Positions 335-61,490 of a stretch of DNA of 64,000 nucleotides are shown here, one piece after another. Every line of letters starts with the position of its first letter. Within the stretch, counting starts at the first letter, position 1. The stretch comes from Phocaeicola plebeius. GTDB taxonomy: Bacteria; Bacteroidota; Bacteroidia; Bacteroidales; Bacteroidaceae. The notes under the pieces were generated by a model. The model ran no database searches and was not told the origin of the DNA. It saw only the letters and a program-made list of their open reading frames with translations. Location: assembly GCF_003437535.1 (NCBI RefSeq), contig NZ_QSQT01000020.1, positions 1 through 64,000 of the forward strand, written 5' to 3'. The position numbers were made by a program, and so were the translations under genes.

Positions 335-422
335 GTTTCCGCTACGAAAAACATACGGTTCCGCAACGCAAAACGTACGGTTCGCATGGCGGAAACATAC
401 GTTTCGCCAAAGGAAAACATAA
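335..422. repeat. 22-bp palindromic tandem array, copy 1 (4 units)
   Basis: Four head-to-tail units start at 335, 357, 379 and 401 with an exact 22-bp period. Each unit is an interrupted dyad (GTTTCCGC to GCGGAAAC type; the third is GGTTCGCATGGCGGAAAC) followed by ATAC or ATAA. Units differ by several substitutions, so this is an old array. The same unit and unit count occur at 22420-22507 in front of an intact HU-like gene. Confidence 0.85.
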
Positions 423-427
423 AAATA

Positions 428-466
428 ATGGAAACATTACACGGTTTTCTACCCGAGGTTTTCTAA
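428..466 (+). pseudogene. Relic 5' end of an HU-like gene (12 codons)
   Basis: The frame starting at 428 reads METLHGFLPEVF and stops at 464-466. Its first nine codons match those of the HU-like gene at 22535 (MEALYDFLP) with six nucleotide differences in 27, all transitions, and both sit just after the same 22-bp array: 5 nt after it here, 27 nt (5 plus one 22-bp unit) after it there. After the ninth codon the similarity ends. I read this as the remnant of a duplicated array-plus-gene unit. A functional leader peptide is the alternative. Confidence 0.6.
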
Positions 467-512
467 AAAAACCGGATTCCGGAAAAAAAGACAGCCCTTC
501 GCGTAAGGGCAT

Positions 513-537
513 AAAAAAAGGAGTTCCGCTGAACTCC
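513..537 (-). terminator. Minus-strand terminator-like hairpin
   Basis: A perfect 7-bp stem, GGAGTTC (520-526) with GAACTCC (531-537), is followed on the minus strand by a run of seven T (513-519). A second hairpin, GCCCTT/AAGGGC, sits at 494-510. No minus-strand gene is seen just upstream, so this may instead be a structured leader. Confidence 0.35.
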
Positions 538-565
538 AACCTTTGTTAACCTTAAATCTAATACT

Positions 566-616
566 ATGAAAGACACAGTACAAAGAATTATTTTGAAATC
601 CTCTAAAAGTAAATAA
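566..616 (+). CDS. Possible 16-aa small ORF
   Basis: ATG at 566 opens a 16-codon frame, MKDTVQRIILKSSKSK, strongly basic, ending in TAA at 614. It follows the 520-537 hairpin and precedes the carbonic anhydrase gene. It could be a leader peptide, a small protein or chance; only conservation in relatives would tell. Confidence 0.2.
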   Translation: MKDTVQRIILKSSKSK

Positions 617-660
617 AGTATTTTCCGAAAAATAAAATCGATATTTCTCCCAAAATCCGC

Positions 661-668
661 TAACTTAG
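661..668 (+). promoter_or_regulatory. Candidate -7 box for the carbonic anhydrase gene
   Basis: TAACTTAG differs from TAnnTTTG at one fixed position and lies 23 bp before the ATG at 692. Confidence 0.35.
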
Positions 669-691
669 CCCCTCTTAAAAATGATTTACCT

Positions 692-1222
692 ATGGCACTT
701 ATCAAATCAGTAAGAGGGTTTACTCCTCAAATCGGTGAGAATTGTTATCTGGCCGACAATGCCACCATCATCGGCGATGTAGTAATGGGAAAGGATTGCA
801 GCGTATGGTTCAATGCAGTACTTCGGGGAGATGTAAACTCCATCCGTATCGGCGACCGTGTGAACATTCAAGACGGTACCGTGCTTCATACGTTATATGA
901 GAAATCAACCGTAGAAATAGGCAATGACGTATCTATCGGCCACAACGTGACACTTCACGGAGCTTGTGTGCACGACAATGCCCTGATTGGGATGGGGTCT
1001 ACCCTGCTCGACCATGCCGTAGTAGGCGAAGGAGCCATCGTGGCTGCCGGTGCACTTGTACTTGCCAATACCGTCATTGAACCGCATACGCTTTGGGGCG
1101 GCGTACCCGCCAAGTTTATCAAGAAAGTTGACCCTGCACAGAGCAAGGAACTGAATCAGAAGATTGCCAACGGATATCTGATGTATGCTTCCTGGTTCAA
1201 AGAGGAAGAAACCGAGAAATAA
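692..1222 (+). CDS. Gamma-class carbonic anhydrase family protein
   Basis: This 176-aa protein is a left-handed beta-helix of hexapeptide repeats, the size and shape of the YrdA/PaaY/CaiE branch of gamma carbonic anhydrases. Three histidines at the family's zinc positions are visible: H66 in VLHTL, H84 in IGHNV and H89 in TLHG. Family members are cytoplasmic trimers that hydrate CO2 or have an unproven role; the acyl-transfer fold alone does not prove carbonic anhydrase activity. The gene stands alone, faces the aldolase gene, and shares a terminator with it. Start choice is clear because the N-terminus MALIKSVRGFTPQIG is typical. Confidence 0.88.
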   Translation: MALIKSVRGFTPQIGENCYLADNATIIGDVVMGKDCSVWFNAVLRGDVNSIRIGDRVNIQDGTVLHTLYEKSTVEIGNDVSIGHNVTLHGACVHDNALIGMGSTLLDHAVVGEGAIVAAGALVLANTVIEPHTLWGGVPAKFIKKVDPAQSKELNQKIANGYLMYASWFKEEETEK

Positions 1223-1224
1223 AA

Positions 1225-1284
1225 AACAGCCTCGCAAGGTTTACGGCATTCGATTCCGTAAGTATTGCGAGGCTGTTACTTTTT
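1225..1284. terminator. Bidirectional terminator
   Basis: A 13-bp stem, AACAGCCTCGCAA (1225-1237) with TTGCGAGGCTGTT (1265-1277), contains a nested TTACGG/CCGTAA stem. T-rich sequence follows on the plus strand and A-rich precedes it, so it can end both the carbonic anhydrase and the convergent aldolase transcripts. Confidence 0.85.
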
Positions 1285-1298
1285 ATCTTTACCTAAGA

Positions 1299-2333
1299 TT
1301 ATTTATTCTTCAACTCTTCCAGCAACTCAGCCACATCTTCTTCACGTGTGGCCCAACTGGTCGCGATACGTACCACTGTCGTACCGTCAGCCCGTTTTTC
1401 CCACACCTCAAAGCCGATGCGCTGTGCCAGTTTCTCGTACAAGCTGTTTTCAAGCTGTACAAACAACTGGTTGCTCTGCGGACGAATGTAGAATGTATAA
1501 CCGTTTACTTTCAGTCCTTCCACAATCCGGTCAGCCATATCAATGGCATGACGGGCAATTTTCAGGTACAAGCCATCTGTAAACAAGGTATCAAACTGCA
1601 AACCTAACAGACGTCCCTTTGCCAGCAACACACCCCGCTGTTTGACAATTGTATCAAACTGGCGAATCAGTCCGGGCTGCGGAATTACGACCGCCTCGCC
1701 AAACAAGGCTCCAACCTTCGTTCCGCCAATATAGAAAATATCACACAAGGAAGCGATGTCTTTCAAAGTCACATCCGTATCCCGTGCTGCCAATCCGTAA
1801 CCCAGACGAGCCCCGTCGAGGAACAACGGAATCTTATGCTTACGGCACACGGCAGACAAAGCCTTCAGTTCATCCAGCGTATAAAGTGTACCGTATTCCG
1901 TAGGATGCGATATATACACCATTCCCGGAGCCACCATGTGATCCCAGCTCGGGTCCTGGTAGAAAGCCGTCACATAACGGTCTACTTCTTCCGCATCCAA
2001 CTTTCCTTCATGGTGAGGCAAAGCCAGCACCTTATGTCCTCCTGCTTCCACCGCTCCGGCCTCATGCTGGTTGATGTGGCCCGTTTCTGCTGCAATCACT
2101 CCTTCATACGGACGAAGCAAGGCCGTAATGACCGTGGCATTGGTCTGCGTACCTCCCACCATGAAATGTACTTCCGCCTGCGGACACCCGCAAGCTTCTG
2201 CAATTTTCCGGCGAGCCGATGCACAATACTCATCCGTGCCATAGCCCGAAGTTTTCTCCATATTCGTCTGACACAAGCGCTCCAGAATCAACGGATGCGC
2301 TCCTTCCATGTAATCACTTTTAAAATATTGCAT
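1299..2333 (-). CDS. Threonine aldolase / beta-eliminating lyase family protein
   Basis: This is a 344-aa PLP-dependent fold-type I enzyme. The PLP lysine is K206 in YIGGTKVG, the cofactor-binding aspartate is D173 in FLDGARLGYG, and a glycine-rich GGTQTNA segment sits near residue 60. The family cleaves L-threonine or allo-threonine to glycine and acetaldehyde, but relatives act on other beta-hydroxy amino acids, so the substrate is inferred. It is soluble and cytoplasmic. It lies 19 nt after the response regulator gene on the same strand and is probably cotranscribed with the two-component genes. Confidence 0.82.
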   Translation of the reverse strand: MQYFKSDYMEGAHPLILERLCQTNMEKTSGYGTDEYCASARRKIAEACGCPQAEVHFMVGGTQTNATVITALLRPYEGVIAAETGHINQHEAGAVEAGGHKVLALPHHEGKLDAEEVDRYVTAFYQDPSWDHMVAPGMVYISHPTEYGTLYTLDELKALSAVCRKHKIPLFLDGARLGYGLAARDTDVTLKDIASLCDIFYIGGTKVGALFGEAVVIPQPGLIRQFDTIVKQRGVLLAKGRLLGLQFDTLFTDGLYLKIARHAIDMADRIVEGLKVNGYTFYIRPQSNQLFVQLENSLYEKLAQRIGFEVWEKRADGTTVVRIATSWATREEDVAELLEELKNK

Positions 2334-2352
2334 ATTCGTTTTGTATTTTAAA

Positions 2353-3063
2353 TTAGACTTTTTCTTCCAACATCAAACCCACTCCCTTCACGGTCTTCAG
2401 TTCCACCGTATCATCGGCCACTAACAGTTTGCGCAAGCGAGACACGAATACATCCAAACTGCGCGAAGCAAAGTAATCTTCCTCCGTATTCCATAGACGC
2501 GACAAGATGACTTCCCGCCGCACAATCTGTCCCTTATGCTCACACAACATACGCAGCAAATCAGCTTCCCGCGCCGTCAGCATCCGTTCTTCTCCCCTTT
2601 TCTGTTTCCATACGCCACGCACCGTATCAAAGGAAAACAGTTTCCCGATGGGTACCTCCCGGACTTCTTTCTGCGCCGACATCCCTCGCGTCAGTTTCAA
2701 CAGTGCCGTGATATGTGCATGCAGTTCCTCGGCCAGAAATGGCTTTTTGACATAGTTATTCACACCCAGTTCATAACCTTTCACCACATCTTTCGGTGAC
2801 ACACGCCCGGAAGTAAACAAGATGGGCACATGCTCATCCTGCTCCCGGATACGCCGTACCATCTCATATCCGTCCATTACCGGCATCTCAATGTCGGCTA
2901 CGATGACATCCGGCTGCTGTGCCTTCCAAACGGCCAGTCCTTCCTCGCCATTGGATGCCGTCAGCACCTTATACCCTCCAATCATATCCTCCAGACCACC
3001 CTGAATGATATAACACAGATTCGCGTCATCTTCCACCAACAACAATTTGATTATCTCTTCCAT
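2353..3063 (-). CDS. OmpR-family response regulator
   Basis: The protein is 236 aa. The N-terminal receiver domain has acidic residues ED at 11-12, phosphoacceptor D57 in VIVADIEMP, and K107 in VKKPF; the C-terminal winged helix (about 140-236) carries the RSLDVFVSRLRKLL recognition region. I use ATG 3063 rather than an upstream in-frame ATG at 3192, because that one lies inside the kinase gene; from 3063 the protein begins right at the receiver fold and only 1 nt separates it from the kinase stop. It is the obvious partner of the kinase and likely binds the 11-bp repeats at 4492-4524. Confidence 0.92.
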   Translation of the reverse strand: MEEIIKLLLVEDDANLCYIIQGGLEDMIGGYKVLTASNGEEGLAVWKAQQPDVIVADIEMPVMDGYEMVRRIREQDEHVPILFTSGRVSPKDVVKGYELGVNNYVKKPFLAEELHAHITALLKLTRGMSAQKEVREVPIGKLFSFDTVRGVWKQKRGEERMLTAREADLLRMLCEHKGQIVRREVILSRLWNTEEDYFASRSLDVFVSRLRKLLVADDTVELKTVKGVGLMLEEKV

Positions 3064-3064
3064 T

Positions 3065-4462
3065 TCATCGTTCCTCTTTTTTATTCTCCAGGGCACTCTC
3101 CGGAGGAAAAGCCAAGGTAAACCGGCTGTATTCCCCCTCCATGCTTTCCAGCGTGACCCGTCCGCCGTGTGCTTCCATAATCCGAAGCACATAATTCAGT
3201 CCCAGTCCGAAACCAGATGCTCCACCGGAACGACTGCGTTCACTGGCTGCCGCCCGTTCGTATTTCTCAAAAATCTTCCGCTGGTCTTTCAACGGAATAC
3301 CGAAACCATTGTCGGCCACCGTCACACAGACTGTTCCATCCGCTTTCCGTTCCGAAAGAAATGTAATTTCCACGGCTTCACCCGAATATTTCAATGCATT
3401 GTCTATCAAATTACTGAGCGCTTCCCTCAGAAATTCTTCGTCTGCCCAAACCACTTCTTCCTGCAAGTTCCATACAAACGCAACCTGCTTAGCAGTTTTT
3501 GCCTTATACTTCTCCGCCAAATCCTCCAGAATCGGGCGTAGCAGACAATCCGTCTGTTGCAATTTCAATGCATGATTCTCCAGTTTGGAAAGCGTCAGTA
3601 CCTTGTTGGTCAACGCCAGCAGATGCTCTCCTTCCTCTTTCACAATACGAAAATAACGTTCTTTCTTTTCCGGCTGTCCGTCCAGGCGTCCGCTTTCCAG
3701 AATCTCCGTCCCCATCAGGATGGAGCTCAGCGGAGTCTTCATGTCGTGAATCATGGCATACGAGAAATCCTCCCTCACCTTGGCTATCTTGTCCTGCCGG
3801 ATAATGACACGAATCTGATACACAATACAGATAATGACCAGTACCATAATCAGCACCGTGGCAATCAGCAACAAAGTCATACGCTGGAAAATCACCCAGT
3901 AAGGATTCAGAATCACCCCTTGCAGATAGCGGGTATATGCCCTATTAATAGGCACCAGCCTTGTTCTCAAGTATTTTTGTCCTTCCAGTTTTGCCTGTGG
4001 AGAGGATGCCCGCAACACATTACCTAACGAATCCGTCATACAAGTCGATACCTTGGCCGAGATACCGACCGAATCCAGCATGTGGGCATAAATAGAATCC
4101 AGATTATGCAAGGACACATCCATCTTGAACGTATTCGATACCCCTTCCTGTATGGCGATGAACACAGCCGATTCAATAAACTGACGTGTTTCCGGAGTTG
4201 GAGTCTGTGTTTCGTCATCCTCCACGTCCTCATTCAGGTCAAACCGATACGTGTACGTGGAATCCTTCTTCCCATGCAACTCTTTCCAAAGGCCTATCCG
4301 ATCAAAAGCCTCCTTAAGTGCCGCATCCTTAAAAAGCTCATGGCTCTGCCGCATGACGTTCTCACGGGTCAGTTTGTAAGTGTTGACCAGCCAGACATAC
4401 TGTAGTTCGACAATCGCAATCAGTCCCACTACCGCAATCCAGCGAATGTGTTTCATCTTCAT
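3065..4462 (-). CDS. Membrane sensor histidine kinase
   Basis: A 465-aa HisKA-type kinase. An N-terminal transmembrane helix (about 8-26) and a second at about 193-216 flank a periplasmic sensor region of about 165 residues with no recognised domain. The phosphoacceptor is H239 in AMIHDMKTPLSS; the ATPase domain shows the N box (LSNLIDNALKYS), G1 (VADNGFGIP) and G2 (GFGLGLN). It autophosphorylates and passes phosphate to the regulator encoded just downstream. The gene is divergent from an outer-membrane barrel gene, which suggests envelope sensing; the signal is unknown. Confidence 0.92.
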   Translation of the reverse strand: MKMKHIRWIAVVGLIAIVELQYVWLVNTYKLTRENVMRQSHELFKDAALKEAFDRIGLWKELHGKKDSTYTYRFDLNEDVEDDETQTPTPETRQFIESAVFIAIQEGVSNTFKMDVSLHNLDSIYAHMLDSVGISAKVSTCMTDSLGNVLRASSPQAKLEGQKYLRTRLVPINRAYTRYLQGVILNPYWVIFQRMTLLLIATVLIMVLVIICIVYQIRVIIRQDKIAKVREDFSYAMIHDMKTPLSSILMGTEILESGRLDGQPEKKERYFRIVKEEGEHLLALTNKVLTLSKLENHALKLQQTDCLLRPILEDLAEKYKAKTAKQVAFVWNLQEEVVWADEEFLREALSNLIDNALKYSGEAVEITFLSERKADGTVCVTVADNGFGIPLKDQRKIFEKYERAAASERSRSGGASGFGLGLNYVLRIMEAHGGRVTLESMEGEYSRFTLAFPPESALENKKEER

Positions 4463-4491
4463 AAGCGTATATTCTTCACGTAAACGAAAGA

Positions 4492-4524
4492 CGTTAACGT
4501 AGCGTTAACCTTGCCTTAACCCAA
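4492..4524. promoter_or_regulatory. Three 11-bp direct repeats, probable response-regulator operator
   Basis: CGTTAACGTAG, CGTTAACCTTG and CCTTAACCCAA follow each other with no gap. Direct repeats at 10-11 bp spacing are the usual binding pattern of OmpR-family regulators. They lie just upstream of the barrel gene promoter (activator position) and inside the 5' leader of the kinase transcript (repressor position). Confidence 0.6.
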
Positions 4525-4542
4525 AAAGCGAAACGGGCTTTT

Positions 4543-4550
4543 TAGTTTTG
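4543..4550 (+). promoter_or_regulatory. -7 box of the outer-membrane barrel gene
   Basis: TAGTTTTG is an exact TAnnTTTG match. Transcription would start near 4557, which favours ATG 4589 over the in-frame ATGs at 4553 and 4565. Confidence 0.6.
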
Positions 4551-4556
4551 CAGTGT

Positions 4557-4564
4557 CAAAGATA
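4557..4564 (-). promoter_or_regulatory. -7 box of the kinase-regulator operon
   Basis: The minus strand reads TATCTTTG. The leader to the kinase ATG would be about 88 nt. This box lies downstream of the divergent plus-strand -7 box, so the two promoters face into each other. Confidence 0.5.
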
Positions 4565-4588
4565 ATGAAAGATAAAGACACGAACGAT

Positions 4589-22195: not shown

Positions 22196-22326
22196 TATAA
22201 AAAACTATAACATGATATATTTTACCTATCACTTTTAACGAATTTCAGTATATAAATCTATAAATTATCATCAGAACGCGTATTTTTACTCACTAAATAT
22301 ACATTCTGAATAGCCAAATATTTTTA

Positions 22327-22376
22327 AATGTCTTCGAAAATCCTCAAATGTCTTCAAATGTCCTCAAATGTCTACA
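22327..22376. repeat. Five tandem 10-bp repeats upstream of the HU promoter
   Basis: AATGTCTTCG, AAAATCCTCA, AATGTCTTCA, AATGTCCTCA and AATGTCTACA follow one another with no gap. A 10-bp period is one helical turn, so a bound protein would see the same face five times. The block ends 19 bp before the HU -7 box. Confidence 0.8.
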
Positions 22377-22395: not shown

Positions 22396-22403
22396 TATAT
22401 TTG
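22396..22403 (+). promoter_or_regulatory. -7 box of the HU-like gene
   Basis: TATATTTG is an exact TAnnTTTG match. Transcription starting near 22410 puts the whole 22-bp array in the mRNA leader. Confidence 0.6.
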
Positions 22404-22419: not shown

Positions 22420-22507
22420 GTTTCCCTAACGGGAACCCTACGTTTTCCGAACGAGAAACATAAGGTTCCGCAAGGAGAAACATACAGTTCAGCCAGCGGA
22501 AACATAA
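22420..22507. repeat. 22-bp palindromic tandem array, copy 2 (4 units)
   Basis: Units start at 22420, 22442, 22464 and 22486 with an exact 22-bp period, each an interrupted GTTTCC/GGAAAC-type dyad followed by ATAC, ATAA or a close variant. The array lies between the HU-gene promoter and its start codon, so in RNA it could form four consecutive small hairpins. It is the same family as the array at 335-422. Confidence 0.85.
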
Positions 22508-22534: not shown

Positions 22535-23224
22535 ATGGAAGCATTGTATGATTTTTTACCCGTACCGGGAACAAAGAACAGCGAAAAGAGCCCGAAACTT
22601 TACCCTAAACTTGTAACCAGAGGAGCTGTACCCTTCAGCGAAATCATCCGGCAGATAGCCCGTTCTTCCGGATTCAAGGAAGGAACCGTAATTGGAGTAA
22701 TGGAAGAAGTGGAGAAATGGACATCTTTCTACATTTCCAGAGGAGAATGCGTAGAAATAGGACACATGGCCTATGCCGTGGCCAACCTGAAGGCAGGGAA
22801 AGAGATAACCGACGAAGGCGAAATTCACGCCCAGACCATCCGATTCGATAAAGTACGGTTTCGCACAAGCAAGAGTTTCAACCGAAGATGCAGGGGACAG
22901 GAACTTTCCCGAGTCAAGACAGAATGGAAATTCCAGAAAAGTTCCGCCCGATACACGGAAGAGGAACGCCTGCACCTGCTCATGGAGTATCTAAAGCAGC
23001 ATCCGTTCATCACAAGGACAGAATACGGTCAGCTGACCGGACTTCAGAAATCAAAAGCCTGGAAGGACCTGAACGGATGGATAAAAAGCAAGATATTAGG
23101 AAGCAAAGGAAAAGCTCCCCACAAAATTTATATACTTCCACCGGAGACTATTTCGACAGCAACCGGCGACTCAGGTAGCGCACCGGATACCATACAGACA
23201 GAAAACCTACAGCCAGTACGGTAA
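22535..23224 (+). CDS. HU-like DNA-binding protein with C-terminal winged helix
   Basis: A 229-aa protein of the HU-HIG type. Residues about 1-120 match the HU fold of this Bacteroidetes family (PKLVTRGAVPFSEIIRQIA, ECVEIGHMAYAV). A basic linker (about 115-138) leads to a putative winged helix (YTEEERLHLLMEYLKQHPFITRTEYGQL..., about 142-205) and a polar tail. It probably binds and bends DNA; a role in capsule or mobile-element control has been suggested for relatives but is not shown here. The last 77 bp overlap the 3' end of the permease gene on the other strand. Its leader is the 22-bp array, which may be an autoregulatory target. Confidence 0.75.
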   Translation: MEALYDFLPVPGTKNSEKSPKLYPKLVTRGAVPFSEIIRQIARSSGFKEGTVIGVMEEVEKWTSFYISRGECVEIGHMAYAVANLKAGKEITDEGEIHAQTIRFDKVRFRTSKSFNRRCRGQELSRVKTEWKFQKSSARYTEEERLHLLMEYLKQHPFITRTEYGQLTGLQKSKAWKDLNGWIKSKILGSKGKAPHKIYILPPETISTATGDSGSAPDTIQTENLQPVR

Positions 23225-42686: not shown

Positions 42687-44021
42687 CTATTTTAAACGTA
42701 CACCATTTACTACCACATTCCGAAGTTGCAGTCCATGAATGTATCCCTTTTGGATAGTCCCCGATTTGCGTGCCGTAATTTCGAGATTCTCAAACAGAAA
42801 ATCCGACAGTTTATACTGTGTCTCGTCCTTCTTGACTGCAAAAAGTACATCACAGTCCAACCGAATATCACGCATGGTAACATGGCTTGAATAAGAAAAA
42901 GGAATATCTTTTCTATCTTTCAAATCAAAAAATTGTGTCCAAGGCTGGGCAAACAAGAAATTGACCACAGAGCCTGTAATATTCTCCAGTCGGATATACT
43001 CATAATTTTGCGGTGTATCCGGACGCATTTTCAACCAAAGCAAACGCTGGGCATGTTCCACCGTACAACGCCGCACCAGAACATTACGGTTATGAATGGA
43101 TTCACTTCCGCAAGTCAATGCACTGTGGCAGACCCCCCATACACAATCTTCTATGATTATGTTCAAGTTGCTCCCGTTATTTACCTTATCCTGATCTGCC
43201 CAAGGTCCTTTTCCGCCTTTCAAAGCTATTGCATCGTCATTCACCGACATATAACACCCTTTCACCAGTACATTCTTACAGACATCAATATCAATAGCAT
43301 CACTGCTCGGTGCTTTTACCGGTGAACGGGGAGCAAAAATGGAAAGATTCAGCAACTTTACATTCTCACACCGGTATAAATGGGTTGTCCAGAAGGGAGA
43401 ATTCTCCAATCTGACTCCAGACAACTGTACGTCTTTTGAATCTGCAATATATACCAGTCGCGGACGTAATTCCTCCAGATTCGTACATTGAGGATTGACC
43501 TGCCGACGCAACCAGAAAGATTTCCAGAAACGAAGTCCGTTCCCGTTTATCTTTCCTTCTCCCGAAAGTGTAAATCCGTCCACCCCTATGGCATTGACCA
43601 GGGCCGCGAAATATTTCAAGTTCTGCCCCTCCAGGCGTGTATCAATCACATCAAAATGACTGATGTCATCACTACCTTTCAACACAGCTCCTTTTTCCAG
43701 ATAAAGGTGGGTGCGAGGTTTGAAAAAAAGTGATCCTGATAAAAACGTACCTTGTGGTATACAAATTACTCCGCCTCCTTCTTGAGCTGCCTTGTCAATG
43801 ACTGCCTGAATCTGTTCCGTCTGTAACAGTGTGCTGTCATTCTGCACTCCATAATCCGTAATACGGTAAATTCCGCCCAACTCCTTTACCGGGGTCACCC
43901 GGCTGTCTGCAAACCAATCCGGTATTGGAGTACCGTCAGGAAACTTTTCCTGAGCAAATACACTTCCAGCCAGCCACAAAAAACAACATAGAAACAAATA
44001 CTTGATAGAATATTCCCTCAT
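42687..44021 (-). CDS. GH28-family polygalacturonase-like enzyme
   Basis: A 444-aa enzyme with a signal peptide (MREYSIKYLFLCCFLWLAGSVFAQ) and a right-handed parallel beta-helix. GH28 catalytic aspartates appear as SDAIDID and the NDDAIALKGG pair; the usual GHG is read here as CHSALTCGSE, a variation shared by relatives acting on rhamnogalacturonan or related chains. It should hydrolyse alpha-1,4 galacturonide links or similar bonds in pectin. It is divergent from the GH105 gene. Periplasmic or secreted, no lipobox. Confidence 0.88.
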   Translation of the reverse strand: MREYSIKYLFLCCFLWLAGSVFAQEKFPDGTPIPDWFADSRVTPVKELGGIYRITDYGVQNDSTLLQTEQIQAVIDKAAQEGGGVICIPQGTFLSGSLFFKPRTHLYLEKGAVLKGSDDISHFDVIDTRLEGQNLKYFAALVNAIGVDGFTLSGEGKINGNGLRFWKSFWLRRQVNPQCTNLEELRPRLVYIADSKDVQLSGVRLENSPFWTTHLYRCENVKLLNLSIFAPRSPVKAPSSDAIDIDVCKNVLVKGCYMSVNDDAIALKGGKGPWADQDKVNNGSNLNIIIEDCVWGVCHSALTCGSESIHNRNVLVRRCTVEHAQRLLWLKMRPDTPQNYEYIRLENITGSVVNFLFAQPWTQFFDLKDRKDIPFSYSSHVTMRDIRLDCDVLFAVKKDETQYKLSDFLFENLEITARKSGTIQKGYIHGLQLRNVVVNGVRLK

Positions 44022-44227: not shown

Positions 44228-44319
44228 TTCTCTGTTTCACACTGTGGGATACAAAAACCACAGTGTGGGATACATATTTCACACTGTGAAATACATATCC
44301 CGCAGTATGAAACAGAGAA
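44228..44319. repeat. 21-bp palindromic tandem array (4 units) with flanking inverted repeat
   Basis: Units start at 44235, 44256, 44277 and 44298 with an exact 21-bp period. The third is TTTCACACTGTGAAA plus ATACATA; the others exchange TTTCAC/GTGAAA and CCCAC/GTGGG arms. The whole block is enclosed by an inverted repeat, TTCTCTGTTTCA (44228-44239) and TGAAACAGAGAA (44308-44319). The unit sequence is unrelated to the other arrays. Confidence 0.85.
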
Positions 44320-44422
44320 ATGTCCGGGAGATTTCTGAAAATATAAACCTTACTTCAGCACTTAACAAAGAGCATTAGCATGTTTTAGAGGAACAGTTAC
44401 TACATCAAGTGAAGAAATTTGA

Positions 44423-44456
44423 ATGATTTTCAATGTATTTGCATGATTTTCCATGT
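44423..44456 (+). promoter_or_regulatory. Two 14-bp direct repeats upstream of the GH105 promoter
   Basis: ATGATTTTCAATGT (44423-44436) and ATGATTTTCCATGT (44443-44456) differ at one base and are spaced 20 bp start to start. The second ends 20 bp before the -7 box, an activator position. Direct repeats at this spacing suit an AraC or hybrid two-component regulator. Confidence 0.6.
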
Positions 44457-44518: not shown

Positions 44519-45649
44519 ATGCGAAAAATTCTTGTTGTATTATTGCTTACAATAAGTGCAGGATTTACTACTTCTTCTGCACAAAAACTACCACCACAAA
44601 AAGAAACGCTCGATGTGGTAATGAAAGTAAACAAATATTTCATGGAGAAATATGCCGATTATCGGACTCCCAGTTTCGTTCGTAATGTTACCCGCCCCAG
44701 CAATATCTGGACTCGAGGAGTGTACTATGAAGGATTAATGGCTCTATATTCCATCTATCCTCGTGCAGAATTCTACGATTATGCATACAACTGGGCTGAA
44801 TACCACGAATGGGGAATGCGAAATGGCAACACCACACGCAATGCCGACGACTATTGCTGCGGACAAACCTATATCGACCTATATAACATTTGCCCCAAAC
44901 CTGAAATGCTGAAGAACATCAAGTCGAACATGAATATGCTGGTCAATACACCGCAGGTAGGCGACTGGACATGGGTAGATGCTATTCAGATGGGAATGCC
45001 CGTACTGGCCAAAATGGGACACCTCACGGGAGAACAAAAATATTTCGACAAGATGTGGGATATGTACGAGTTCTCACGCAATCAACTCGCAGGAAAAGGA
45101 ATGTTCAATCTGGCTGACGGTCTCTGGTGGAGAGACGCTGATTTCTTGCCTCCATACAAAGAGCCCAATGGAGAAGACTGCTACTGGAGCCGGGGAAACG
45201 GATGGGCCTACGCTGCACTGGTACGCGTACTTGACGAAATTCCAGCCAATGAAAAACATCGCCAAGACTACATTAACGATTTCCTGATTATGAGCAAAGC
45301 ATTAAAAAAATGCCAGCGTACAGACGGATTCTGGAATGTAAGTCTTCATGATGCCGGAAATTACGGAGGAAAAGAAACTACAGGTACTGCCCTGTTTGTC
45401 TACGGAATGGCATGGGGAGTACGAAACGAATTACTGGATAAAGAAGAATATTTACCTGTTTTATTAAAAGGATGGAATGCCATGGTAAAGGAGGCAGTCC
45501 ACCCCAACGGTTTCCTGGGTTACGTACAAGGTACCGGGAAAGAGCCTAAAGATGGTCAGCCAGTCACATACGAAAGTGTTCCGGACTTTGAAGACTATGG
45601 AGTGGGATGCTTCCTACTGGCTGGTACGGAAGTCTACAAACTACAATGA
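44519..45649 (+). CDS. GH105-family unsaturated rhamnogalacturonyl hydrolase
   Basis: A 376-aa enzyme with a signal peptide (MRKILVVLLLTISAGFTTSSA) and an (alpha/alpha)6 barrel similar to YteR/GH88. The likely catalytic aspartate is D154 in WTWVDAIQM, and a substrate-binding aspartate pair lies at 110-111 in RNADDYCCGQ. It removes the 4,5-unsaturated uronic acid that lyases leave at the non-reducing end of pectin oligosaccharides. Together with GH28 and GH106 it marks the region as pectin/rhamnogalacturonan-related. Confidence 0.9.
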   Translation: MRKILVVLLLTISAGFTTSSAQKLPPQKETLDVVMKVNKYFMEKYADYRTPSFVRNVTRPSNIWTRGVYYEGLMALYSIYPRAEFYDYAYNWAEYHEWGMRNGNTTRNADDYCCGQTYIDLYNICPKPEMLKNIKSNMNMLVNTPQVGDWTWVDAIQMGMPVLAKMGHLTGEQKYFDKMWDMYEFSRNQLAGKGMFNLADGLWWRDADFLPPYKEPNGEDCYWSRGNGWAYAALVRVLDEIPANEKHRQDYINDFLIMSKALKKCQRTDGFWNVSLHDAGNYGGKETTGTALFVYGMAWGVRNELLDKEEYLPVLLKGWNAMVKEAVHPNGFLGYVQGTGKEPKDGQPVTYESVPDFEDYGVGCFLLAGTEVYKLQ

Positions 45650-55690: not shown

Positions 55691-55722
55691 AATTAATTAG
55701 ATTTACGAATTAAAACTACGAC

Positions 55723-55730: not shown

Positions 55731-55731
55731 C

Positions 55732-55762: not shown

Positions 55763-55789
55763 TCATATTTAAGATTTTGTAAGTCTGAA

Positions 55790-57394
55790 TTACAATTTCG
55801 GACCAGCAGCAACCAAAGCCTTACCAGCTTCGTTACCTGTAAACTTAGCGAAGTTCTTGATGAAACGTCCAGCCAAGTCTTCAGCTTTCTTAGTCCATTC
55901 AGCAGCATCAGCGTAAGTGTCACGCGGATCCAAGATTTTCGGATCAACACCCGGCAATTCTGTCGGAACAACGAAATCGAAGTAAGGAATAGTCTTAGTA
56001 GGAGCTTTTTCGATAGAACCATCCAAGATAGCGTCGATGATACCACGAGTATCACGGATAGAAATACGTTTGCCAGTTCCGTTCCAACCAGTGTTAACCA
56101 AGTATGCTTTTGCACCAGTCATTTCCATCTTCTTAACCAGTTCTTCTGCATATTTAGTAGGATGCAAGCTCAAGAAAGCAGCACCGAAGCAAGCAGAGAA
56201 TGTCGGAGTCGGTTCAGTGATACCACGTTCTGTACCAGCCAACTTAGCAGTAAATCCAGACAAGAAGTAGTACTGAGCCTGTGCAGGATTCAAGATAGAT
56301 ACTGGAGGCAATACACCGAATGCATCAGCTGACAAGAAGATAACTTGTTTAGCGTGAGGACCCTTAGAGATAGGTTTCACGATGTTTTCGATATGGTGGA
56401 TAGGATAAGAAACACGAGTGTTTTCAGTTACGCTCTTATCAGCGAAGTCAATCTTACCGTTAGCATCTACTGTTACGTTTTCCAACAGAGCGTCACGTTT
56501 GATTGCGTTGTAGATATCTGGTTCAGATTCTTTATCCAGGTTGATAACCTTAGCGTAGCAACCACCTTCGTAGTTGAATACACCTTCGTTATCCCATCCG
56601 TGTTCGTCATCACCAATCAACTTACGTTTCGGGTCTGTAGACAAAGTAGTCTTACCAGTACCAGACAAACCGAAGAAGATAGCTGATTCAGTTTCTTCCA
56701 TGTTAGTGTTAGCAGAACAGTGCATAGAAGCGATACCACGCAACGGGTTGAAGTAGTTCATCATAGAGAACATACCTTTCTTCATTTCACCACCGTACCA
56801 AGTGTTCAGGATAACCTGTTCTTTAGTAGTCAAGTTGAACACAACTGCAGTTTCTGAGTTCAGACCCAGTTCTTTGTAGTTTTCAACTTTAGCCTTAGAA
56901 GCGTTGTAAACAACGAAATCAGGTTCGAAGTTTTCCAACTGTTCTTTAGACGGACGGATGAACATGTTAGTTACGAAGTGAGCCTGCCATGCAACTTCCA
57001 TGATGAAACGAACTTTCAAGCAAGTAGCTTCGTTAGCGCCGCAGAAACCATCAACAACATACAATTTCTTGTTTGACAATTCTTTAGCAGCCAATTCTTT
57101 CAATACATTCCAAGTTTCTGTAGTTACAGGCTTGTTGTCGTTTTTATATTCTTCTGAAGTCCACCATACAGTGTTTTCACTTGTAGCGTCTTTTACCAAG
57201 AATTTATCTTTAGGAGAACGACCAGTATAGATACCAGTCATTACGTTTACTGCACCCAGTTCAGTTACCTGACCTTTTTCGAAGCCTTCCAAACCAGCTT
57301 TTGTTTCTTCTGCAAACAATACATCGTAAGAAGGATTGTGTACGATTTCTACGGTTCCAGTGATACCGTACTTAGTAAGATCTAAATTTGCCAT
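55790..57394 (-). CDS. pckA: Phosphoenolpyruvate carboxykinase (ATP)
   Basis: A 534-aa PEP carboxykinase of normal length. The kinase loop is [27 protein letters not shown], and the [10 protein letters not shown] and [17 protein letters not shown] segments are present. In Bacteroides it fixes CO2 onto PEP to make oxaloacetate on the way to succinate, as well as running gluconeogenesis. Codon use is strongly biased. It has its own promoter and terminator and is divergent from upp. Confidence 0.97.
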
Positions 57395-57497
57395 TGTTCA
57401 AATGATTAATTTGGTTATTATATCAAATGTTTATTGTCTAAATCTGTAAGCCTAATCCGCTTTTCTGCTCTTCAACATCTCCTTGTTTTAGGCGCTA

Positions 57498-57525
57498 CAA
57501 AAGTAGTAGATATTTTTAATTCAAA
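57498..57525 (-). promoter_or_regulatory. Promoter of pckA
   Basis: Minus strand -7 box TACTTTTG (57505-57498) and a TTTG -33 candidate (57525-57522). The leader would be about 95 nt. Confidence 0.5.
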
Positions 57526-57673
57526 GAAGTTATTACAGAAAAAAATCCGTAATCATTTAAAGATTTATACTTGTGTAACAAAATTGCCAAATCCACTTTA
57601 CAAATCAATTTTATTTTGTTTCTTTGCAAACTGGAATCTAAATAATAAAACCCCTAAGAACCTGAAAATGTTT

Positions 57674-58327
57674 ATGAAAATAATCAACTTTAACCAAAGC
57701 AACAGCCTTTTCAACCAGTTCCTTTCTGAAATCCGTGATGTGCATATACAAGGTGACCGCATCCGCTTCCGCCGCAACATAGAGCGTGTAGGCGAAATCA
57801 TGGCATACGAAATCAGCCGGACGCTTCCTTACCATCCGGTATCCGTACAAACCCCATTGGCTACAGCCGTAGAGAATGTACCTTCCGAGCAACCTGTGGT
57901 AGCCACCATCCTGCGTGCAGGACTTCCGCTTCATCAGGGCTTCATCAACTATTTTGACCATGCGGAAAATGCCTTCGTATCGGCCTATCGTAAATACATC
58001 AACGAAGATAACTTCGACATTCACATTGAATACATCGCTTCTCCACGACTGGACGGAAAGATTCTGATTCTGACCGACCCGATGCTGGCTACCGGCAGTT
58101 CCATGGAACTGGCATACGAAGCCTTGCTTACCAAGGGAGAACCATCTCATATACACATTGCTTCAGTCATTGCCAGTCGTCAGGCCATCGAGCATATCAA
58201 AAAGGTGTTCCCTACTGAAAAAACCACCGTATGGTGCGGCGCCATCGACCCGGAACTGAATGCCCATTCCTATATCGTGCCGGGACTGGGAGATGCAGGC
58301 GATTTGTGTTATGGAGAAAAAGAATAA
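57674..58327 (+). CDS. upp: Uracil phosphoribosyltransferase
   Basis: From ATG 57674 the protein has 217 aa. The PRPP loop is ILTDPMLATGSSM and the C-terminal uracil-binding part ends with HSYIVPGLGDAGDLCYG. It makes UMP from uracil and PRPP (salvage). ATG 57668 adds two residues; much earlier in-frame ATGs run into the divergent promoter region and were rejected. The promoter is less clear than others; TTTCTTTG at 57619 is a candidate. Confidence 0.94.
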   Translation: MKIINFNQSNSLFNQFLSEIRDVHIQGDRIRFRRNIERVGEIMAYEISRTLPYHPVSVQTPLATAVENVPSEQPVVATILRAGLPLHQGFINYFDHAENAFVSAYRKYINEDNFDIHIEYIASPRLDGKILILTDPMLATGSSMELAYEALLTKGEPSHIHIASVIASRQAIEHIKKVFPTEKTTVWCGAIDPELNAHSYIVPGLGDAGDLCYGEKE

Positions 58328-58333
58328 AGACAA

Positions 58334-58375
58334 AAAAGGAGCCAGACGAAAAAATCACTGGCTCCTTTTCTTTTT
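58334..58375. terminator. Bidirectional terminator
   Basis: A 12-bp stem, AAAAGGAGCCAG with CTGGCTCCTTTT, then TCTTTTT. It serves upp and the convergent korB. Confidence 0.92.
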
Positions 58376-58387
58376 ATCATGTCAGAT

Positions 58388-59398
58388 TTATTTAATCTCC
58401 CACGTATCATTCGTTTCCAGCAATTCGGCAAACGTGTGATACTTTTTCTTGGCTGAAACCTCTTCAATCTGGGCTTCTACTGCCTCATCGTATGTCGGTG
58501 CATCCACATCACGAATCACACCCAAGGCTATCGGGAAATCCGGGCCTTCCATCAGCGCAAGTTTCAACTGAAGGGTGTGATCTTCACAATGGGCATCGTG
58601 CACTAAGATGTCTTTTTCCGTGATACCGTTCTCACCCAGTTTCACCACTTTCAGCCCGAAGCCTTCCTGCATCAGACCGAATTCTTTGTTCGGACCAAAG
58701 AGCATAGGCTTACCGTGCTCCAGATAAATCGCATTGCGTTCACGATCTTCCTTCTTGGCTACGGCATTATGCGTACCGTCATTGAAGATGACACAGTTCT
58801 GCAATACTTCCACTACCGACGTACCTTTATGACGGGCAGCTGCTTTCAGCACTTCCACAGAGGGGCCGCCATCTACTGCCGCACAACGGGCAAAGAAACG
58901 GCCGCGAGCTCCGAAACACAAATCTGCCGGACGGAAAGGATCTTCCACCGTACCGTAGGGAGAAGATTTACTTACAAACCCACGGGCTGAAGTCGGAGAA
59001 TACTGTCCCTTGGTCAATCCGTAAATACGGTTATTCAACAGGATGATGTTAATATCTACATTACGACGGATAGCATGGATAAAATGGTTACCACCGATGG
59101 CCAGGCCGTCACCGTCACCGGAAATCTGCCAGATAGTAAGATTCGGATTAGCCACCTTGGCTCCCGTAGCAATGGCAGCCGCACGTCCGTGAATGGTGTG
59201 CATGCCATACGTATTCATGTAATAAGGCAAACGCGAAGAACATCCGATACCGGAAATCACCGCAATTTCATGGGGAGGTACTCCCAGTTCGGCCAAAGCC
59301 TTGTGAAAAGAATTCAGGAAAGCGTGGTCGCCGCAGCCCGGACACCAGCGAGGCTGTCCGGATTTGTAATCTGCTGCCGTATATTTTGTTTCACTCAT
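58388..59398 (-). CDS. korB: 2-oxoacid:ferredoxin oxidoreductase, beta subunit
   Basis: A 336-aa subunit with the CPGCGDH cysteine motif (near 18-24), CSSR, and the thiamine pyrophosphate motif GDGDGLAIGGNHFIHA...NNRIYGLTKGQ. With the alpha subunit it should convert 2-oxoglutarate (or a related 2-oxoacid) to its CoA ester with reduction of ferredoxin, running in either direction in anaerobes. It starts 33 nt after korA. No ferredoxin-like gene is seen beside it. Confidence 0.93.
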   Translation of the reverse strand: MSETKYTAADYKSGQPRWCPGCGDHAFLNSFHKALAELGVPPHEIAVISGIGCSSRLPYYMNTYGMHTIHGRAAAIATGAKVANPNLTIWQISGDGDGLAIGGNHFIHAIRRNVDINIILLNNRIYGLTKGQYSPTSARGFVSKSSPYGTVEDPFRPADLCFGARGRFFARCAAVDGGPSVEVLKAAARHKGTSVVEVLQNCVIFNDGTHNAVAKKEDRERNAIYLEHGKPMLFGPNKEFGLMQEGFGLKVVKLGENGITEKDILVHDAHCEDHTLQLKLALMEGPDFPIALGVIRDVDAPTYDEAVEAQIEEVSAKKKYHTFAELLETNDTWEIK

Positions 59399-59431
59399 TG
59401 TTATTCCTCCAGAATATTTATTGATGAATCA

Positions 59432-61279
59432 TTAAAAAAGTTGACTGAAAGCCTCTACCAGCTCTTTCACTACGAACGGCTGGCCTTTTACCTGATTGAA
59501 CTGATGCAGGTGAATACCTTCCACTTTCATGCGGAGATAGCCTGCCAGCTGTCCCATATTTTGCTCGGCCACCACGATGGTCTTGTATTTTCGTAATACT
59601 TCGGCTGTATTTTTCGGCAACGGGTTGATGACACGGAAATGTGCCAGCGCTGCTTTCTTTCCCATGGCGTTCAACTGATCCATGGCAGAATGCAAGTGTC
59701 CGTAAGTACCTCCAAAACCTACAATCAGCAAATCGGCATCCGGATCGCCTTCCACTGTAAGCGGTGGCAATGAATCGGCAATCTTTTCTACCTTTTCGGC
59801 ACGCAACTTCGTCATCAGGAAGTGGTTTTCCGGTTCCGTAGAAATGGCTCCGGTTTCGTTACTCTTTTCCAATCCTCCGATACGGTGCATAAAGCCCGGG
59901 GTACCCGGTGTAGCCCAGTAACGCACGCCTGTCTGCGGATCACGCTGGAACGGTGTCCACGAATCAGCCATTTCCAGCTTCACGTAAGGCGGACAGATGG
60001 ATGGATAAGTATTCAAATCGGGCAAACGCCATGCAGCAGAACCGTTGGCAATATAGGCATCGGTCAACAAAACGACCGGAGTCATGTGTTCCAGAGCAAT
60101 CTTGCAGGCCAGATAAGCCGCATCAAAGCAGTCGGTCGGTGAAGAAGCCGCCACCACAGGCATCGGACTTTCTCCATTACGTCCGAACAGCACCTGAAGC
60201 AAGTCGGTCTGTTCCGATTTGGTCGGTAGTCCGGTAGAAGGGCCTCCACGCTGTACGTCTACAATCACCAGCGGAAGTTCCGTAATCACCGCCAGATTCA
60301 TGGCCTCACTCTTCAAACAAATACCCGGTCCGGAAGTGGTCGTTACAGCCAATGCGCCGGCAAACGAAGCTCCTACAGCAGAAGCACATCCGGCAATCTC
60401 ATCTTCACACTGCACCGTTTTCACGCCCAGCGATTTATGTTTGGCCAGTTCATGCAGAATATCTGTGGCCGGTGTAATCGGGTAGGAACCCAGATACAAT
60501 TGCAAACCTGCTTTCTCTGCAGCCGCCATCAGACCGTATGCCGTCGCTTTATTACCGTTGATATCCATGTATTTTCCCGGCTCTTTCTGTGCCTTGCTCG
60601 GCACGGTATAGCTCATCGATACAGAAGCATGGGTATTCTCACCAAAATGATAACCGTCGTAAAGTACCTTCACATTGGCTTCGGCAATTTCCGGTTTCTT
60701 GGCAAATTTCTCGCGCAGAATTTTTTCGCCCACCTTCACATCGCGATGGAACAACCAGCATACCAATCCCAGAGCAAACATGTTCTTTGTTCGCAAGATA
60801 GACTTGTTGTCCAGCCCGCTGTCTTTCAGGCTTTCCTTACACATGGTAGTGATAGCTGCCGACACGACTTCATTCTTGATACCCAGTTCCGAGAAGGGAT
60901 TTTCCAACGTAAACTTAGCCTTTTCCAGGTCACGTTTGGTAAACGAATCGGAGTCGATAATAATTACCGCCTGCGGTTTACAAAATTTATACTGTGTTTT
61001 CAAGGCTGCCGGATTCATGGCTACCAGCACATCGCACTTATCGCCCGGAGTATATACCTTTCCGGCACCAATATGCACCTGAAAGCCAGACACACCAGTC
61101 AATGAACCTTGCGGGGCGCGAATGTCCGCCGGGTAATCCGGGAATGTACTGATATCGTTTCCTTCGGTTGCCGAAATATTGGAGAACATATTTCCGGCCA
61201 GCTGCATTCCGTCACCGGAATCACCCGAGAAACGGACTACTACCTCGTCCAGTTCCTTGACAATCATTTCTTCTGCCAT
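59432..61279 (-). CDS. korA: 2-oxoacid:ferredoxin oxidoreductase, fused gamma-alpha subunit
   Basis: A 615-aa protein joining an N-terminal gamma domain (about 10-190, VVRFSGDSGDGMQLAGNMF) to the alpha domain (about 215-600, YPITPATDILHELA; VQRGGPSTGLPTKSEQTDL). This is the usual KorA layout in Bacteroidetes. It is the first gene of the korAB operon. The exact 2-oxoacid (2-oxoglutarate or other) is inferred from family resemblance. A 22-bp repeat array lies about 100 bp upstream. Confidence 0.93.
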   Translation of the reverse strand: MAEEMIVKELDEVVVRFSGDSGDGMQLAGNMFSNISATEGNDISTFPDYPADIRAPQGSLTGVSGFQVHIGAGKVYTPGDKCDVLVAMNPAALKTQYKFCKPQAVIIIDSDSFTKRDLEKAKFTLENPFSELGIKNEVVSAAITTMCKESLKDSGLDNKSILRTKNMFALGLVCWLFHRDVKVGEKILREKFAKKPEIAEANVKVLYDGYHFGENTHASVSMSYTVPSKAQKEPGKYMDINGNKATAYGLMAAAEKAGLQLYLGSYPITPATDILHELAKHKSLGVKTVQCEDEIAGCASAVGASFAGALAVTTTSGPGICLKSEAMNLAVITELPLVIVDVQRGGPSTGLPTKSEQTDLLQVLFGRNGESPMPVVAASSPTDCFDAAYLACKIALEHMTPVVLLTDAYIANGSAAWRLPDLNTYPSICPPYVKLEMADSWTPFQRDPQTGVRYWATPGTPGFMHRIGGLEKSNETGAISTEPENHFLMTKLRAEKVEKIADSLPPLTVEGDPDADLLIVGFGGTYGHLHSAMDQLNAMGKKAALAHFRVINPLPKNTAEVLRKYKTIVVAEQNMGQLAGYLRMKVEGIHLHQFNQVKGQPFVVKELVEAFSQLF

Positions 61280-61380
61280 ATCGTATTTATTTAAAGTTCA
61301 CAAAATCAATTTTGGCAAAATTGGGGAAGTTCCGTAAAAAAACAAAATAAATCGGGAGATATTTTCTGCAACCTCTCAAA

Positions 61381-61490
61381 AAACGCAAGTGCATTTGATA
61401 TAAAACGCAAGGGCGTTTCACTTCAAACGCAAGGACGTTTGATCTTAAACGCAAGTGCGTTTTGGATTGAACGCAAGTGCGTTTTTTCAC
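61381..61490. repeat. 22-bp palindromic tandem array (5 units)
   Basis: Units start at 61381, 61403, 61425, 61447 and 61469, exactly 22 bp apart. Each begins with the dyad AAACGC-AAGT-GCGTTT or a one- or two-base variant, followed by about six unconserved bases. The unit is unrelated in sequence to the arrays at 335, 22420 and 44235 but has the same geometry. Confidence 0.9.

Follow-up and report, generated by a model that had tools for sequence, protein, structure and literature searches.

In gut Bacteroidales, arrays of phased palindromes precede many genes of HU-type proteins. Most of the proteins have a palindrome unlike that of the others, a pattern suggesting that each of them reads an address code of its own. 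HU proteins are usually viewed as sequence-blind DNA benders. The arrays are present in a stretch of 64,000 nucleotides from Phocaeicola plebeius (the window), where the first-pass annotation had placed four of them; direct reading finds all four at those positions, and they are three things: leader arrays of HU-HIG genes (A1 and A2), a dispersed element (B) and a member of a genome-wide family (C). The geometry shared by A and B is likely the operator geometry of HU-HIG proteins. The features concerned are as follows (TRF, Tandem Repeats Finder).

335..422, + strand: array A1, leader of a lost HU-HIG gene, same family as A2 (direct reading, TRF)
428..466, + strand: HU-HIG gene-start relic, ATG and 11 codons resembling MEALYDFLPVPG, then a stop (read by eye)
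22315..22373, + strand: 10-bp-period repeat AAATGTCYTC just upstream of A2 (TRF)
22396..22403, + strand: TATATTTG, -7-like box 22 bp before the A2 array block (sequence reading)
22420..22507, + strand: array A2 in the leader of a HU-HIG gene, 4 units, 22 bp (direct reading, TRF)
22535..23224, + strand: HU-HIG gene, 229 aa, HU/IHF-like domain and predicted C-terminal winged helix at residues 142-200 (PF18291, E=1e-24)
42687..44021, - strand: GH28 gene, divergent neighbour of B (Pfam)
44228..44320, no strand: element B, 93 bp, 4 dyads at 21 bp, ends TTCTCTG..CAGAGAA, dispersed repeat (sequence reading, blastn)
44417..44456, no strand: 10/20-bp-period repeat between B and the gene at 44519 (TRF)
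44519..45649, + strand: Glyco_hydro_88-domain gene, divergent neighbour of B (Pfam)
59432..61279, - strand: 2-oxoacid:ferredoxin oxidoreductase gene, korA-type by our reading of its domains (Pfam), with C about 100 bp upstream of its start
61381..61484, no strand: array C, 5 units AAACGY-N4-RCGTTT at exactly 22 bp, six-base spacers variable (direct reading, TRF)

Phased Dyad Arrays Exceed Chance

The intergenic bases were scanned, over all periods from 16 to 30, for runs of three dyads in succession, and shuffled intergenic sequence, the comparison that the first-pass annotation had proposed, gives almost no such loci. The 5404 intergenic bases of the window hold 2 loci at 22 bp (mean of 20 shuffles, 0.0) and none at the other periods; the 45467 intergenic bases sampled from the relative G008 (20 evenly spaced 20-kb stretches) hold 6 at 22 bp vs. 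0.15 in shuffles, and again none elsewhere in the range. In G012, a more distant genome of the same genus, the period of 22 bp yields 1 locus and the other periods 0-2. With 2 window loci the strict dyad test detects only two of the four arrays, all of which are detected by Tandem Repeats Finder. Counts of generic patterns refer to exact triples and not to arrays, and many of the matches listed in an order-wide survey resemble AT-rich noise. Rfam at gathering thresholds places no RNA family over the arrays, the sole match in the window being FopS at 510-576.

Arrays in the Leaders of HU-HIG Genes

Both A1 and A2 consist of 4 units of 22 bp with imperfect GTTTCC..GGAAAC dyads and ATAC-type spacers (A2: period 22 by autocorrelation, p=0.005; dyad, p=0.02). 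The earlier description of these two arrays stands, with the addition that A1 leads into a HU-HIG relic and A2 into an intact HU-HIG gene. A 10-bp-period repeat similar to that upstream of A2 also lies upstream of another HU-HIG gene, L002. The window protein scores 87.4 bits against PF18291 (curated cut-off 26.2), and five leader-bearing relatives score 55.3-116.6 bits. Residues 142-200 have an H-H-H-E-E pattern with block means of pLDDT of 82-93 in the AlphaFold model of the near-identical P0001, a model of low confidence in the HU part (mean pLDDT 63.7, pTM 0.35). Pfam matches to winged-helix or Myb-like domains over residues 142-200 are weak; Foldseek matches HU/IHF and winged helices, none at E<=0.001, and a sequence search found no solved structural relative of the protein. 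The model predicts a winged helix as the second domain, one of the three kinds (winged helix, Ig or glycine-rich) expected with PF18291.

The leaders of HU-HIG genes whose proteins carry a winged helix were scored in three sets, the winged helix being assigned by length and by eye from the C-terminal sequence, save where Pfam or a model is cited. The blind set was chosen by protein similarity alone (tblastn with the window protein), its 19 regions coming from 14 records under "plasmids" and 5 under "phages"; no HU-HIG relative in a viral contig was confirmed. After removal of L446, whose start codon is unclear, 16 of 18 blind leaders reach p<=0.01 for an array whose period is 21 or 22. The genus set, which comprises the leaders read beforehand and is the source of the rule, gives 15/18 at p<=0.01 and 16/18 at p<=0.05; the third set, without L471 (no open frame found), gives 2/3. 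Altogether 33 of 39 winged-helix leaders, in 23 groups at 60% protein identity, carry an array, and six fall below the cut (L404, L421, L440, L448, L453 and, with p=0.04, L425). Ordinary upstream regions of G008 and G012 give 0/120 (p<=0.02, 100 shuffles) and housekeeping HU genes 0/6. Two leaders outside the scored sets were read: L001 (by eye) has no array, L003 has a B array. Dyad symmetry reaches p<=0.05 in 23/31 arrays, the other 8 being not significantly dyadic.

The consensus of the -7 box is TAnnTTTG. Within -45 to +12 of the array start, 26/33 leaders have a box TAnnTT[TC][GA] vs. 17% of control windows of the same size, and 16/33 vs. 11% have the exact TAnnTTTG. More similar proteins tend to have more similar leaders (Spearman 0.224, permutation p=0.002): dissimilar paralogues have unrelated dyads and close orthologues keep the array, as do those of the window, G008 and G024 with their A-type arrays, which are degenerate in G075 (p=0.04). 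L414 and L431 are 83% identical, yet have different leader arrays. Among HU-HIG genes without the winged helix arrays are less frequent: 6/21 reach p<=0.01 at period 20-23 (L410 has a simple repeat, and two have period 23). The link to arrays is thus not exclusive to winged-helix genes, and since these six also show arrays, the winged helix may not be the reader of the dyad.

Dispersed Arrays of Types A and B

A-type arrays also occur away from HU-HIG genes, none of which was found beside them in 16 loci (12 distinct). They have exactly 4 units in 19/19 examined and a conserved 9-base outward end, CATAAAAAA-like, with no leader-and-tail structure; their spacers are often CGTAGG or CCTACG.

Element B had been described as an array of 4 units of 21 bp at 44235-44318. 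The array is there, and the description needs the correction that it is one copy of a conserved 93-bp element, the spacers included. Roughly 20 copies are present in each of three relatives (blastn matches with both strands counted: 34 in G001, 36 in G008 and 41 in G024), and one copy is the leader of another HU-HIG gene, whose orthologues in these three genomes are all preceded by the B array. G075 has one copy of B, and its 3 strong HU-HIG matches are all of types other than B (five weaker matches reach at most 38.5 bits). A B-like pair of G049 has no HU gene in its 2-kb locus. Among 24 scored contexts, two of them HU-HIG leaders, 11 are divergent, 11 codirectional and 2 convergent; 6 of 30 loci were left aside, five for short flanks or duplication and one for lack of genes on both sides. 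Near dispersed B copies 21 -7-like boxes point away, at 80-180 bp, vs. 3 that point in. Several copies lie at contig ends. By eye, from the protein starts, no common gene theme was evident beside dispersed A and B arrays.

Array C, a Genome-Wide Family

Arrays of 5 units orthologous to C of the window lie upstream of korA in four relatives; among 80 named korA upstream loci C is present in the four nearest relatives, and one array lies at another distance in L388. Two further detector matches of this survey look like noise. C belongs to the largest array family, which is found mostly near gene 3' ends: in four species the median distances are 18.5-57.5 bp to stop codons vs. 119.5-170 bp to starts (L195 and L205, where no array passed the detector, are not counted). 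In G008 the arrays listed are rare between divergent genes (2/31 vs. 33/114 intergenic regions, p=0.009); in G009 6/18 classified arrays are so placed. The arms are kept while the spacers vary from array to array, and 60 array ends in G008, among the arrays listed, show a short outward T run with weak signals further out. Positions are mostly not shared among G008, G009, G052 and G019 in the parts of the genomes compared, where 12 locus pairs have a similar protein and few have matching placement. One large hairpin per array was considered and rejected: in G008, G009 and G052 mirror complementarity stays within the level of shuffles, and in G019 units exceed the pooled shuffle and not the within-array shuffle.

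None of the HU-HIG leaders examined contains a C array, and the gene context of C is opposite to that of B. We take the C arrays to be sites of a putative dimeric DNA-binding protein other than HU-HIG, distributed in a way of their own, for the most part at gene 3' ends. For the dispersed families of G018, G052 and G053 no matching HU-HIG leader was found among those examined. Promoter-like boxes pointing into dispersed arrays show no clear enrichment: C in G009 has them on 5/38 sides (control stretch, 1), and the other sets give none.

Proposed Mechanism and Alternative Explanations

In front of the genes of most winged-helix paralogues there are about four dyads 21-22 bp apart, that is two helical turns, so that all dyads face one side of the helix. 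Since the array begins just after a -7-like box, it would cover the transcription start and the 5' leader. HU-HIG dimers may bind one dyad each through their winged helices, the HU part would bend or bridge the DNA, and a filled array would close the promoter of the gene, so that the leader array probably makes the HU-HIG gene autoregulated, by repression. Because unrelated paralogues have different dyads and close orthologues retain theirs, each protein would own its address. Arrays of the same address (A and B in the clade of the window) are scattered over the genome, B mostly on the 5' sides of genes, and there the same protein may act as a local regulator or architect. As a tentative extension, HU-HIG proteins might form an address system for bacterial chromatin, in which dozens of paralogues in the order each have a private dyad code, written on their own promoter and read at tens of dispersed four-dyad arrays; HU domains stacked two turns apart would form a defined nucleoprotein particle, the codes would turn over from species to species along with the proteins, and C would be a parallel system with another reader.

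The first-pass annotation had offered two origins for the common geometry. One, a protein family that binds two-turn-phased dyads with differing specificity, is the best explanation for A and B, since HU-HIG leaders carry arrays and dissimilar paralogues have unrelated dyads, an argument by association; C is not accounted for by HU-HIG proteins, given its absence from the examined leaders and its opposite gene context. The other, a general process that multiplies whatever palindrome is there, taken here as a mutational one that works at two-turn spacing and involves no selection, would account for so many unrelated sequences with the same spacing, but it is not needed and is highly improbable, because the array is retained between orthologous genes, none is found in ordinary upstream regions, and in C the arms are kept while spacers vary. 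It is also quite unlikely that the leader arrays act as RNA, as four hairpins of the 5' UTR that the HU-HIG protein binds or that serve as a switch, with the dispersed arrays as decayed copies. Arrays after a -7-like box are probably transcribed, and HU homologues can bind RNA, according to the part of the source available (PMC3969353). However, helical phasing fits duplex DNA, T.G as well as A.C is frequent at the inner positions of the arms among the C units listed for G008, as read on the strand given there, and dispersed B copies lie on 5' sides with boxes pointing away, thus outside the transcripts on which they would act.

Could the arrays be miniature mobile elements, MITE or REP-like, spread by a transposase, with HU-HIG leaders as one landing site? 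The conserved length, inverted ends, copy number and contig-end positions of B would fit, as would the poorly shared positions of C, two C arrays of G024 that lie 23 kb apart and share two consecutive spacers, and two A arrays of G008 (L306 and L309) that are near-identical including the near flanks. Yet the variable parts of most A and C arrays differ from array to array, so that these are not mutual copies, the C ends in G008 offer little beyond the T run, and no target-site duplications around B were seen by eye. The Y1 transposase (PF01797) occurs in 6/61 genomes of the genus, none of them among the eight with the most C-type AAA-N10-TTT triples; it is present in G059 and G018, both with arrays, and was not found in G001, G008, G024, G075, G009, G004, G074, G023, G052 and G019. 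Landing would not explain arrays of paralogue-dependent sequence in 33/39 leaders either, and we consider this reading unlikely. Somewhat less doubtful is that C arrays are bidirectional terminators or RNA elements of 3' ends, with no relation to A and B: they lie close to stop codons, are rare between divergent genes in G008 and end in an outward T tract. Against this speak the divergent placements in G009, stems with only three G:C pairs (by reading), mirror complementarity no higher than in shuffles (G008, G009 and G052) and arrays upstream of genes such as korA, while termination needs neither five tandem units nor a strict period.

If the operator reading of A and B is true, the large HU family of dominant gut bacteria would represent sequence-specific HU-based regulation or chromatin, and the protein-array pairs collected here could serve to work out the residues by which each dyad is recognised. 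Unexplained repeats of Bacteroidales genomes would gain a function, and the reader of the species-specific C arrays would be the remaining puzzle.

Comparison with Known Systems

The first-pass annotation knew of no described element of this kind in Bacteroidales. Neither leader arrays in print nor paralogue-specific HU-HIG operators were found in the search results, and Pfam describes the protein only. Three systems are related but different. The BrickBuilt MITE of Porphyromonas gingivalis is likewise an intergenic tandem repeat of Bacteroidales, with 23-nt repeats (19 copies in one strain); the part of the report available describes a leader and tail with IS-like inverted ends, repeats without spacers and no tie to a HU-HIG gene (PMC4596501). 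Neither A nor C has such ends, given the short T run of C in G008 and the 9-base end of A; element B has inverted ends; the periods of the window arrays and of the winged-helix leaders are 21 or 22, and C has six-base spacers. REP/BIME sequences resemble C in being palindromes specific to a species, in their many copies and in a location that is mostly between genes in convergent or codirectional order, and differ by a GTAG or CGTC tag and, in the part of the source available, by no description of strict 22-bp arrays (PMC3733652). The 3'-biased C shows no such tag by eye, and A, whose spacers often contain GTAG, is not 3'-biased. In P. gingivalis the HU protein PG0121 binds a palindromic region upstream of the operon with which it is co-transcribed, with some preference for a 77-bp inverted repeat over an unrelated 77-mer; by the available part of that report it is a plain HU of about 10 kDa with one large inverted repeat and no phased dyad array (PMC3969353).

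The HU-HIG domain of PF18291 is present in the window gene and in those leader-bearing relatives that were tested, many of which have a winged helix as in Pfam. Multi-site operators and plasmid iterons are phased, repeated protein sites, often autoregulatory. The HU-HIG arrays lie at the promoter-like region of a gene whose product is the putative binder; they differ in that one geometry is combined with many unrelated dyads, which go along with the paralogues of one family.

Phased Arrays in the Window and in Related Genomes

The first-pass annotation had placed four phased palindromic arrays in the window, and 4/4 were confirmed in its sequence, array C having the same geometry as A and B.

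Phased palindromic arrays read from the window sequence
Array A1, 335-422, four 22-bp units
Array A2, 22420-22507, four 22-bp units
Array B, 44235-44318, four 21-bp units
Array C, 61381-61484, five 22-bp units

The supposition that such arrays are commoner than in shuffled intergenic DNA was borne out by a sequence-blind scan, in which three successive dyads at any period of 16-30 bp were sought in intergenic DNA, with 20 shuffles as control. Two 22-bp loci were found in the window (20-shuffle mean 0.0) and six in 20 stretches of the relative G008 (mean 0.15), and with this three-dyad scan both gave zero loci at every other period of the range. G012, a more distant member of the same genus, gave a single 22-bp locus, with 0-2 for the other periods. 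The nearest genome compared, G001, has 30% of sampled 31-letter words in common with the window.

Arrays in the Leaders of HU-HIG Genes

Most leaders of HU-HIG genes (PF18291, HU/IHF-like) with a winged helix in the genus carry arrays, the dyads of which are unrelated to one another (CACGWWCGTG, TTCCATGGGCTGGAA, ACTATAGT etc.). In the genus set 15/18 winged-helix leaders had an array, compared with 1/11 for HU-HIG genes lacking the winged helix, and none of 120 ordinary upstream regions was positive for array periodicity. The rule was then examined blind, by comparing the window protein with plasmid- and phage-labelled records (14 + 5 matches, from P. massiliensis, B. finegoldii, Parabacteroides distasonis and fecal contigs); 19/19 regions were fetched and 18 were scored for periodicity against shuffles, and a period of 21 or 22 was present at p<=0.01 in 16/18 leaders. 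The 14 matched "plasmid" records (OY7257xx-OY7260xx; P. massiliensis, B. finegoldii, P. distasonis) resemble mislabelled pieces of chromosome. A third set gave 2/3 for winged-helix leaders, 5/10 for HU-HIG genes without the winged helix and 0/6 for housekeeping HU genes. In total 33/39 winged-helix leaders, representing 23 protein groups at 60% identity, and 6/21 leaders of HU-HIG genes without the winged helix were positive. Five of the latter kind (L461, L462, L454, L458, L465) contain arrays of 22- or 23-bp repeats.

Dyad symmetry was significant in 23/31 arrays at 0.05 and in 14 at 0.01. In 26/33 leaders, vs 17% of control windows, a box resembling the -7 element (TAnnTT[TC][GA]) is present at -45 to +12 relative to the array start; the exact TAnnTTTG form is present in 16/33 vs 11%. 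The similarity of leaders tracks that of the proteins: 80% of pairs at least 60% identical (n=20) have clearly similar leaders (z>4), and 5% of pairs below 30% identity (n=322) do. The HU-HIG proteins of L414 and L431 are 83% identical and their leader dyads differ, which, judged by sequence, is possibly a recent change of recognition code, and the pair is useful for mapping specificity residues.

Array A and Element B

In the window, an HU-HIG-domain gene (229 aa, Pfam) begins 27 bp past the end of A2, and array A is the leader array of this one HU-HIG gene, distinct from that of B. A1 is followed by an ATG at 428, eleven codons like the start of the HU-HIG gene and then a stop, so read from the sequence it is a kept array ahead of an HU-HIG relic. 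The A-type gene has orthologues preceded by an array of this type in G008 and G024 and by a degenerate one in G075. Array A is also dispersed: the complementary generic pattern detected 15 triples in G008, 31 in G024 and 11 in G075, and 19/19 dispersed arrays examined (G008 and G075) have four units. The same pattern caught a further family in G018 and G073 (TTTCA..TGAAA with CTWTAG) and yet another in G053; no matching readers were found for these array families.

Several observations concern the surroundings of these arrays. G008 has two A arrays, at L306 and L309, that are near-identical and also alike in their near flanks; they are oppositely oriented and separated by 2.8 Mb. The FopS small RNA gene (RF04319; 510-576, minus strand) directly adjoins A1 and the relic, and this RNA is already described in the available text of PMC11697453. 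Repeats with a one-turn (10-bp) period adjoin A2 (22315-22373) and B (44417-44456), and a similar AAATGTCTTC repeat precedes another HU-HIG gene in L002.

Array B recurs as a full 93-bp element, spacers included, in mostly unrelated flanks. Matches by blastn, with both strands counted, numbered 34 in G001, 36 in G008 and 41 in G024; G075, with its one copy, gave 2. In G001, G008 and G024, one copy per genome forms the leader of an HU-HIG gene with a winged helix, the three genes being orthologous; B is a copied element belonging to an HU-HIG gene. Among 24 copies scored from 30 loci, 2 are HU-HIG leaders, and the flanking genes are divergent at 11, codirectional at 11 and convergent at 2, a context opposite to that of C (divergent vs convergent, Fisher p=0.0009). 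Flanking 26 copies, 21 promoter-like boxes face away from B, clustered 80-180 bp off its ends, and 3 face in. Several G001 contigs, among them that of L003, terminate within a copy of B, which means that draft assemblies break there and may undercount B.

Array C as a Genome-Wide Family

A pattern of two C units (<=3 mismatches) is present in 12/40 relatives, five of which have 144-257 matches each, and in 0/16 genomes of other genera; the reversed control also gave zero matches. G008 holds 203 unit pairs at <=1 mismatch, and its arrays, among the matches listed, usually have 4-6 AAACGY-N4-RCGTTT units of 22 bp, with six-base spacers that vary between arrays. The generic AAA-N10-TTT triple at 22 bp occurs in 33/61 genus genomes and its reversed control, which caught further array families, in 17/61. 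The inner ten bases depend on the species (GATACTAATC in G044, CGTCCGTTCG in G052, CACGGCCGTG and others in G019).

The window array, which lies about 100 bp upstream of the start of korA (59432..61279, minus strand), has a five-unit counterpart at the same place in G001, G075, G008 and G024. Spacers and centres in G075 are unlike those of the window despite a best flank match of 93% identity, and many other members of the genus have a tRNA-like sequence (by eye) at this place. Median distances of C-type arrays to stop codons are 51 bp in G008, 56 in G009, 57.5 in G052 and 18.5 in G019, and medians to starts in these genomes are 119.5-170 bp. Among 91 C-type arrays from 93 loci, the flanking genes are codirectional at 44, convergent at 28 and divergent at 12; 2 arrays fall inside open frames and 5 are unclear.

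Two C arrays of G024 (C19:19203 and C19:42271), 23 kb apart, have two consecutive spacers in common, pointing to inter-array copying or conversion. The 12-mer ACACGGCCGTGT is common to the L413 leader of a G019 HU-HIG gene and to dispersed G019 arrays, a possible link between a C-like family and an HU-HIG gene.

In the order, the generic pattern is found in 47/294 genomes. Many of the matches listed resemble AT-rich noise; those listed for other families include clear dyad arrays with other sequences (e.g., G089, G345, G235). An array in G345 (C1:2267017-2267318) is much longer, with >10 units of AAACGTAAGCACGTTT-like dyads.

Protein Structure and Proposed Working

The AlphaFold model used was made for P0001, a database protein one residue apart (by eye) from the window protein. 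It shows the first half as HU-like at low to medium confidence; residues 142-200 form a winged helix, predicted with high confidence. Foldseek returned HU/IHF proteins, a putative DNA-binding protein of Bacteroides vulgatus (4fmr) and small winged-helix regulators, none of them at E<=0.001, and no solved relative was found by sequence alone.

From this anatomy we infer that HU-HIG dimers would bind one dyad each, the two-turn spacing setting four dimers on one face of the DNA, which the HU parts may bend or bridge. Dimers on the array at their own gene would block its promoter; when bound to the dispersed copies of A and B, this protein may influence promoters close by or fold the chromosome on a local scale.

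Comparison with Known Systems

Of named repeat families, BrickBuilt (PMC4596501) and REP (PMC3733652) were compared and both rejected, since the arrays lack defining features of each as given in the available text of these papers. No printed description of the arrays was found in the available text of the literature searched, outside which most subscription papers lie. The nearest printed link found is the study of PG0121 HU (PMC3969353), the available text of which connects a palindromic region with an HU protein from Bacteroidales.
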